A stretch of DNA of 64,000 bases from Candidatus Zixiibacteriota bacterium (lineage in GTDB: Bacteria > Zixibacteria > MSB-5A5 > GN15 > FEB-12), in the NCBI GenBank assembly GCA_024278935.1, contig JAJRSF010000038.1, positions 62,001-126,000 of the forward strand, read 5' to 3'. The stretch's first letter is position 1. Every line of letters begins with the position of its first letter. Position numbers and translations under genes: made by a program. Positions 6,644 to 9,111 of the stretch are shown one piece after another. The notes under the pieces are model-generated. The model was not told the origin of the DNA and did no database searches. It saw only the letters and a list, made by a program, of their open reading frames with translations.

Positions 6644-8101
6644 CTATTTGGATGTAATAGTCAAACAGACATCTATATTATATCCTGTCGGGATAATATG
6701 ACTAGGTATTATCGTAATGACAGAATTACTCGATATATGCTGTTCAATATGAAGAGTTACGTTCACATTAGGATCCCAGAAATATGAGACACCATCAATT
6801 ATGACCGTGAGAGTTTTGATATGCTCTCCAGTATTAACAATTGCGGTGAAGTCACAATTATAGGTTGCCTCACTATTTTTAAACAACCAATATATATATT
6901 CTAATTCATAAGAGATTCTTGAACAGATTGTTGTCGTTTCTGTTGTGTCATGGATAATGACAGTATCTACAACTGTTATTGAATCATTTATATAAATTGT
7001 ATCGGTCTTGATGATTGTATCTATTTGAATAATTGTATCCACTAAACTAGAATCTATTATTATAATAGTGTCCGAAATTATAATAGTATCAACTATCGAA
7101 ACAGTATCTATGATTGTATTAGTGTCTACAATCGTGAGAGTGTCTGTTTGTAAAATCGTATCTACAATCGTCAAAGTATCAATGATGTTAATCGTATCGA
7201 CTATAATTGTTGTGTCGTTTATAATTATTGTATCTACAACATTAGTCGTGTCGTAGAAAATCATTGTATCAATAATAAACAATGTATCGGTATTGAATAA
7301 AGTATCTATGATGTTGAATGTATCTACTATGAGCATCGTGTCGGTATTGAAAATTGTATCTACGACATTGGTAGTGTCATAGATAGTGACAGTATCAACT
7401 ATAAATAAAGTATCCGTATTCATCAATGTATCTACTATCAAGAGAGTATCTATAATTATAGTAGTATCGGATGTATTGACAGTATCAACAACAAAGGTTG
7501 TATCAAACACGAGGGTTGTATCGTGAATATAGAATGAATCAATTACAAACAGCGTGTCGGTTTTAAACAATGTATCGACAATTACAGTAGTGTCGGATGT
7601 ATTCACAGTATCAACAATAATGGTTGTGTCAAAGACAAGGGTTGTATCGTGAATATAGAACGAATCAATGACATAGAGCGTGTCAGTGTTCAAAAGAGTA
7701 TCCACAACAATAACCGTATCTATAACGTTAGTTGTATCGACAATGTAAATAGTGTCATTATCAAATATAGTGTCAATTTGAATTATCGTATCTATCGTGT
7801 TGAATGTATCAATAATATAAGTTGTATCATTACTAAATACAGTATCAACAACAAGTATTGTGTCGAGCGTAAAAGTTGTGTCAAAGATATATGTTGTATC
7901 ATGAGTTGCGTTTGAATCAATGACAATTACTGTATCGATAGAAAAAAGTGTATCTGTATTGAAGACTGTATCATAAATGAATATAGGAGGATTCGGATTC
8001 GGATCATCTCCATCAAATTCAAGTGGATTCGAACAGTTGACAAGAAGCTGTACACTAAACAGAGTGAGAGCCAAAAACAGTAAAAAACTTAGCCGTTTCA
8101 T
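6644..8101 (-). CDS. Lipoprotein built of 58 tandem Asp-Thr hexapeptide repeats
   Basis: 485 residues. Residues 1-22 are a signal peptide leading to Cys23 in LLVNC, a probable lipobox with an unusual Asn before the Cys. From residue 43 to 389 the protein is 58 consecutive hexads of the form hydrophobic-or-polar, Asp, Thr/Ser, then three mostly hydrophobic residues (for example VDTLFN, TDTLFV, IDSFYI). Asp is kept in all 58; one hexad has only five residues. About 95 further residues form a different C-terminal domain with several Val/Ile-rich strands and three Cys. The ATG overlaps the stop of the OmpA-like gene upstream (ATGA), so the two are translationally coupled. I do not recognise a family; a beta-solenoid or other repeated beta structure on the outer membrane or cell surface is an inference. 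Confidence 0.88.
   Translation of the reverse strand: MKRLSFLLFLALTLFSVQLLVNCSNPLEFDGDDPNPNPPIFIYDTVFNTDTLFSIDTVIVIDSNATHDTTYIFDTTFTLDTILVVDTVFSNDTTYIIDTFNTIDTIIQIDTIFDNDTIYIVDTTNVIDTVIVVDTLLNTDTLYVIDSFYIHDTTLVFDTTIIVDTVNTSDTTVIVDTLFKTDTLFVIDSFYIHDTTLVFDTTFVVDTVNTSDTTIIIDTLLIVDTLMNTDTLFIVDTVTIYDTTNVVDTIFNTDTMLIVDTFNIIDTLFNTDTLFIIDTMIFYDTTNVVDTIIINDTTIIVDTINIIDTLTIVDTILQTDTLTIVDTNTIIDTVSIVDTIIISDTIIIIDSSLVDTIIQIDTIIKTDTIYINDSITVVDTVIIHDTTETTTICSRISYELEYIYWLFKNSEATYNCDFTAIVNTGEHIKTLTVIIDGVSYFWDPNVNVTLHIEQHISSNSVITIIPSHIIPTGYNIDVCLTITSK
6935..7975 (-). repeat. 18-bp-period tandem repeat encoding the Asp-Thr hexads
   Basis: The DNA encoding hexads 1-58 keeps an 18-base period with a GAT/GAC-ACN/TCN core. 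One stretch of seven hexads (126 bases) is present twice in tandem with few differences (hexads 17-23 and 24-30, around 7460-7690), a sign of recent unequal duplication. Confidence 0.9.
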
Positions 8102-9111
8102 TGTCCACCTCCAAAGATTTCAAAGAATGTCAATGAGAAAAGGAACTGTCCGTCTTTATTGCTTGAAAATTCATTCGAAATTTCTCGATGTTTGGCAGGG
8201 TTATAAGATGCTGTTATTGACAAACTTCGTGCGAGGTTTAAACGAGCACCAAACATAGGACCTTCAGACAATTTAACAAATTCATAATATTCATCAGCAA
8301 TTTCCTCAACACGCATCCAACCTGCGAGCAGACCGAAATTTTTATTCTCAAATGGGTAATAAGATATTTGCCCACCTAGTAATCTTTTTTGTGTTTTCAA
8401 AGTAAGGTCGTTAAAGTCAAATTTTGTCGTCCATAAAGTATGACCGCCGATAACTTCAATAAACAAATTTCTTTCCCATGTTACACCACCGGCAACTACC
8501 GGCATGCCACCAAATGGGGAAGTGGATAATCCTGTTGAAACGATAATTCCGAATTTATCAGAAAAAGCTTTTGTTGTATCTGGTACCATCTGTGTAAAAT
8601 GTTTTTCAACCGGAGGTTGATTTTCTAAAGCTTCTAAACGTGCCAGCATATCACCAAACGATGTATTTGCCTCAAGAGCTCTCAGACGTGCCACTAACAT
8701 CGCAAGATCAATTGACTCCTGCGAAATACGAACCGAAGCATAACGACCTTTTGGAGATTTCATCGTTACCTCTTCAGAGTTGATTGCAATCTGAACAGGA
8801 TTAAGATTAAATTGGGTTGTCATGTAATTGCGTAATGCATGAGCACGACCAACTGCCAAGGCAGGGTTCTTGGTGTTGTCGTCGGTACGATATACTTCAC
8901 CATCGGCACCTCCTGTAATAATCGCTTCAGCGAGCGGATATTTTTTTAAAGTATCTGCTATCTGTTGTAATGCATCATGATAAGGTGTAAAAAAATCATT
9001 TTCGATAGATCTTCCAACTCCGATTGGAAAACCTGAGACGATTACTTCTTGAGATAAAAGTATACCAGGAAGCAAGAGCATACAGAAAGTAATTAGTAAA
9101 AATCTTCTCAT
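8098..9111 (-). CDS. Outer membrane beta-barrel protein with OmpA-like N-terminal domain
   Basis: 337 residues with a Sec signal peptide (MRRFLLITFCMLLLPGILLSQ). Residues about 35-130 resemble the peptidoglycan-binding OmpA C-terminal fold: LQQIADTLKKYPLAEAIITGGADG, then ALAVGRAHALRNYMTTQFNLNPVQI and RYASVRIS. A short linker rich in charged residues follows (LRALEANTSFGDMLARLEALE). The last ~150 residues have alternating amphipathic strands with many Gly and aromatic residues, consistent with a small outer membrane barrel. The order (OmpA-like first, barrel last) is reversed relative to classic OmpA. It is translated just before, and overlaps with, the hexapeptide-repeat lipoprotein, so the two products probably act together at the outer membrane. 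Confidence 0.75.
   Translation of the reverse strand: MRRFLLITFCMLLLPGILLSQEVIVSGFPIGVGRSIENDFFTPYHDALQQIADTLKKYPLAEAIITGGADGEVYRTDDNTKNPALAVGRAHALRNYMTTQFNLNPVQIAINSEEVTMKSPKGRYASVRISQESIDLAMLVARLRALEANTSFGDMLARLEALENQPPVEKHFTQMVPDTTKAFSDKFGIIVSTGLSTSPFGGMPVVAGGVTWERNLFIEVIGGHTLWTTKFDFNDLTLKTQKRLLGGQISYYPFENKNFGLLAGWMRVEEIADEYYEFVKLSEGPMFGARLNLARSLSITASYNPAKHREISNEFSSNKDGQFLFSLTFFEIFGGGQ

Follow-up and report, generated by a model that had tools for sequence, protein, structure and literature searches.

A length-variable lipoprotein with a candidate O-glycosylated stalk in Zixibacteria

What purpose could be served by 58 consecutive Asp-Thr hexads, placed between the lipid anchor and the C-terminal domain of a bacterial lipoprotein? 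The question is raised by a gene in a 64-kb stretch of Candidatus Zixiibacteriota DNA (the window). An earlier note on this DNA had described the ladder, had read the protein as a lipoprotein outside known families and translationally coupled to an OmpA-like gene, and had suggested that the Asp-Thr pairs could bind metal ions or cap a long thin beta structure. The first part of that description stands, the beta structure and the metal ladder are not supported, and the tripeptide that heads each unit, a known glycosylation sequon, had gone unrecognised.

The lipoprotein gene, its array and its partner

The features of the locus are as follows.

6644..8101, minus strand: lipoprotein gene, 485 aa, whose start shares 4 nt (ATGA) with the stop of the OmpA-like gene
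8033..8101, minus strand: lipoprotein signal peptide and lipid-anchor Cys23 (lipobox LLVNC, then SNPLE), from the sequence
7973..8032, minus strand: short Asp/Asn/Pro-rich linker from anchor to array, from the sequence
6932..7972, minus strand: array of 58 D-[TS]-x4 units, residues 44-390, a predicted O-glycosylated stalk (sequon statistics, low pLDDT)
7172..7434, minus strand: a tandem pair of 126-bp blocks, each with 7 hexads, within the array (DNA repeat)
7438..7707, minus strand: a further pair of tandem 126-bp blocks, 7 hexads each, within the array (DNA repeat)
6647..6931, minus strand: C-terminal beta-sandwich domain, residues 391-485 (95 residues; alignments and AlphaFold)
8098..9111, minus strand: OmpA-like partner gene, 337 aa, with a signal peptide, an N-terminal peptidoglycan-binding domain (about residues 35-112) and a C-terminal barrel-like part (profile and sequence)

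On recounting, the array was found to hold 53 DT and 5 DS units, with Asp in 58 out of 58; its limits, 7972..6932, lie about 3 nt away from those first noted. All spacings but one are of six residues (56 of 57), the single five-residue unit being DSSLV (residues 350-354). Signal peptide and lipobox bear out the lipoprotein assignment, and the C-[SA]-x-P start that follows the lipobox is kept across the lipoprotein family. The array lipoprotein had no match in Pfam or NCBIfam, as expected for a protein outside known families. A match to PHROG_5070 (E 9e-8) was rejected as compositional, the family search also matching E. coli, archaea and other controls, mostly in long unrelated frames. No match was obtained by tblastn against phages and plasmids, a search that says little on the repeat itself because low-complexity filtering hides the array.

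At the DNA level, identity between array units averages only 53%, and the codons are mixed (GAT or GAC for Asp; ACA, ACT or ACG for Thr). This means that the Asp-Thr pairs are kept by selection on the protein and not by recent slippage. The four-unit DNA pattern GAYAC-N13 has 38 matches in the window genome, all on one strand, and the reversed control pattern had none across 118 genomes. In viral contigs, the DT-hexad DNA pattern mostly picked up other low-complexity repeats once translated, and the strict third position of the sequon was respected in only 35% of these chance hexads. The array is neither a chance product nor the result of simple slippage. The two pairs of 126-bp blocks indicate that it grew by block duplication. 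As a side observation, ACC is used for none of the 53 Thr codons that follow Asp (window 6932-7972); it makes up about 19% of the Thr codons of the genome, and is present at unit position 3.

The array is strongly acidic, with a net charge near -55, and very rich in Ile, Val, Thr, Phe and Tyr. Such a composition, in repeats so long and regular, could be that of a functional amyloid or adhesive fibre subunit, with the array as core of the fibre and the C-terminal domain as its cap. We regard this as very improbable, given a charged Asp every six residues, the overall charge, and the existence of relatives with only 2-4 units.

The C-terminal domain was modelled by AlphaFold as a beta-sandwich with a pLDDT of 93.4. 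Family alignments revealed in it an invariant Cys pair, C393 and C479, which probably forms a disulfide. Foldseek returned CBM35, GOLD and collagen-binding domains, none of them below E 1e-3, and for this reason no function was assigned to the domain.

As for the partner, the 4-nt overlap agrees with the translational coupling proposed previously, and GGAGGTGG is found just upstream. Taken as a single sequence, the OmpA-like protein scores under the Pfam cut-off; its family profile matches the peptidoglycan-binding domain of Omp38 (PDB 3td3) with an E value of 1.6e-7. The partner shares this domain with the Omp38/OmpA family, including the conserved Asp and Arg, and four of its residues (D70, N82, A86 and R89) are invariant among 17 relatives. 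Its C-terminal part is predicted to have the character of an outer-membrane barrel. Compared to E. coli OmpA, the order therefore looks reversed, with the binding domain first and the barrel-like part last.

Array length and period among relatives

OmpA-like relatives were present in 26 of 61 genomes taken from genus to order level, and the C-terminal domain profile had matches in 31 of 132 class-level genomes. Wherever the gene downstream of an OmpA-like relative was readable, it encoded a lipoprotein on the same plan. The same gene pair occurs in genus- to class-level relatives within Candidatus Zixiibacteriota, with arrays of 2 to 58 units (2, 3, 4, 5 ... 40, 58). Named records with OmpA-like relatives belong nearly all to Candidatus Zixiibacteriota; one record titled Ignavibacterium sp. 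(L053, DYGG01000022.1) has the Zixibacteria gene pair, and is probably a misnamed bin. Array length differs even among close relatives, since proteins with 93-95% identical C-terminal domains had 17 versus 11 units, and 11 versus 8 units.

The O-glycosylation sequon of Bacteroidota is D-S/T-A/I/L/V/M/T, extended by S/C/G/F (PMC8550257, PMC12871550). The strict form, D[ST][AILMTV], is matched by 51 of the 58 window units, and the extended form, D[ST][AILVMTSCGF], by 56. Family statistics were drawn from 523 units of 35 relatives. Array Asp residues were followed by Ser or Thr in 523 of 536 cases, and the third position was A, I, L, M, T or V in 93.7% of the units (98.5% when S, C, G and F were added). 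At positions 4, 5 and 6 the same residues made up 53%, 71% and 68%, and the extended set 78-81%. Counted per protein, position 3 exceeded position 5 in 20 proteins, and the reverse was found in 2. Spacings between units ranged from 4 to 10 residues (37 of four, 15 of five, 402 of six, 6 of seven, 21 of eight, and others), and in another family of the class one array has mostly period 5 (L355, G076) and another mostly period 7, of the type DTxxxPG (L356, G079). As the period drifts while D-[ST]-[AILMTV] persists, the tripeptide is the primary constraint and the structural period a secondary one.

The period is nevertheless not fully free, as six dominates with 82% of the family spacings, and even spacings greatly exceed odd ones. 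Moreover Ala was never found at position 3 (0 of 523 units), although the sequon permits it and exported proteins have it, a beta-branched bias which glycosylation does not account for. Together these preferences suggest some additional constraint of the beta type.

Could the array then be an ordered beta structure, such as a solenoid, a cross-beta fibre or a metal-bound ladder, with Asp-Thr at the turns? The dominant period of six, the excess of even spacings and the beta-branched composition would fit, as would the alternation of two hexad types (period 12) in some relatives, for instance L044 and L053. However, true relatives have periods of 4, 5, 7, 8 and 10, entire blocks of units are present in one protein and missing from its nearly identical counterpart, and in the full-length AlphaFold model the array has no confident fold, with a pLDDT mostly between 35 and 65, about 50. 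Matches of the array lipoprotein to solved structures in the PDB were of low complexity only. The evidence therefore disfavours a fixed beta-solenoid or a metal ladder, and we hold an ordered structure of any of these kinds to be improbable; the long thin beta structure of the earlier note is likewise not supported. Left-handed beta-helix hexapeptide repeats also have mostly six residues per unit, but their strict period is broken in the array relatives, their residue pattern is unlike that of the array, and no profile or fold match to them was found in Pfam, NCBIfam or the AlphaFold model.

The sequon in exported proteins

Occurrence of the sequon outside arrays was measured in sampled genome regions, using a simple gene caller and a signal-peptide rule; arrays were left out, and expectations were obtained by shuffling. 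For the window genome, 130 exported proteins had D[ST][AILMTV] 1.65 times as often as expected (z 10.5); in 278 cytoplasmic proteins the ratio was 1.06. The versions of the motif with Glu or Asn were not enriched in that genome (0.9). Exported proteins were also examined in 12 other Zixibacteria genomes: ratios lay between 1.3 and 2.7 in 11 of them (z 1.7 to 9.6), and the remaining one, G098, had a ratio of 1.09. Pooling the 13 genomes gave a 1.77 fold enrichment (z 20.4) in 405 exported proteins outside arrays, and no enrichment in 975 cytoplasmic ones. When the 405 proteins were scanned free of any motif, for X[ST][AILMTV] with all twenty residues at X, Asp ranked first. Following D[ST] in exported proteins, only L, V, T, C, I, A and M were above 1. 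The excess is widely spread, the top 20 of 400 proteins carrying 35% of it, and it is strongest in lipoproteins (2.02 fold). Exported proteins of E. coli had no enrichment (0.85). Enrichment was not clear in a small Bacteroidota control, for which 49 exported proteins were taken from Spirosoma plasmids; this weakens the control set and leaves the contrast of exported with cytoplasmic proteins intact.

These data bear on a simpler account of the array, as an unmodified acidic, Thr-rich spacer of free length, extended or disordered, in which Asp, set between beta-prone residues, would merely serve as a gatekeeper against aggregation. The freedom in unit number and period, the low pLDDT and the strong acidity all agree with it. 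On this account there is no reason to expect Ser or Thr after almost every Asp, so narrow a choice of residues at the third position, or an excess of this tripeptide in ordinary exported proteins, and we consider it unlikely. The earlier note had itself named homologues acting as a simple linker of free length as the observation that would count against its reading; the relatives largely look so, except that the linker is built almost wholly from one known glycosylation sequon.

O-glycosylation on D-[ST]-hydrophobic sites has so far been described mainly in Bacteroidota, and none of the papers in the literature set searched combined Zixibacteria and O-glycosylation. We think it reasonably probable that Zixibacteria possess a phylum-wide general O-glycosylation system acting on this sequon, together with dedicated lipoproteins of variable length and almost pure sequon that serve as sugar-coated stalks. 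If this is true, general bacterial O-glycosylation extends past the phylum where it was described, which would date the system earlier. Zixibacteria would then also offer a second lineage in which to find, by shared gene content, the missing oligosaccharyltransferase, still unidentified in Bacteroidota (PMC12871550).

A predicted glycosylated stalk

With a probability of roughly 0.7, we interpret the lipoprotein as a bottle-brush stalk, densely O-glycosylated and free to vary in length, which would hold the beta-sandwich domain off the outer membrane. The protein would pass the inner membrane into the periplasm, where a general O-glycosylation system of the Bacteroidota type would add one glycan to the Thr or Ser of most of the D-[ST]-[AILMTV] sites (58). 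A glycan every six residues would render a Thr/Ile/Val-rich and highly acidic chain soluble, extended and protease-resistant, like a mucin or a bottle brush, and possibly stiff; with 347 residues and 0.25-0.34 nm per residue, its length would reach at most some 90-120 nm. The N-terminal lipid would anchor the stalk in the outer membrane, and the C-terminal domain would be presented at a distance, perhaps exposed at the surface to some ligand. Duplication or loss of unit blocks would change stalk length fast, sequon density alone being under strong selection. The OmpA-like partner is probably co-transcribed with the lipoprotein. As a protein of the outer membrane that carries a peptidoglycan-binding domain it may, if the two proteins do form a complex, fix the place of that complex in the envelope. 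Such a stalk would be a natural, nearly pure sequon polymer, with about 56 glycans predicted on one protein, and the family would provide a natural length series from 2 to 58 units.

The closest comparison is with the O-glycosylation substrates of Bacteroidota (B. fragilis, T. forsythia, P. gingivalis, F. johnsoniae). The tripeptide is common to both, the compartment is the same (exported proteins and lipoproteins), the preference at the third residue is led by Leu, as in Zixibacteria exported proteins, and the enrichment is limited to exported proteins in both cases. The sites are scattered in Bacteroidota, whereas the Zixibacteria array has 58 in a row, one every six residues, on which the glycan is predicted. 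Since the phylum is another one, the array may be said to work like a Bacteroidota substrate, not to be a member of the described system. Mucin-like and serine-rich-repeat glycoproteins have long Ser/Thr repeats, variable in number, between an anchor and a binding domain, and are modified by dedicated glycosyltransferases that are not known to use an Asp-based sequon. They share with the array the long Ser/Thr repeat and its variable count, but the array is devoid of Pro and Gly. With regard to density, the S-layer protein TfsB, the most heavily glycosylated protein of T. forsythia, has 20 predicted sites (PMC8550257).

A few frames depart from the common plan. Three family members (L022 in G002, L061 in G018, L063 in G035) are without the C-terminal domain, and the tails in which they end, rich in Asp, in Asp/His or in Asp/His/Cys, look metal-binding. 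In the viral contig IMGVR_UViG_3300027881_000042, which may in fact be bacterial, a lipoprotein-like frame (L176) has a long DT run of the same sequon type and another C-terminal end. Finally, short DT arrays were observed in unrelated exported proteins of Zixibacteria (L132, at G000:C23:51093-51169, and L117, L128, L129, L131 and L020), where they are placed directly after the signal peptide or between the lipid anchor and a domain, as if they were a reusable module.
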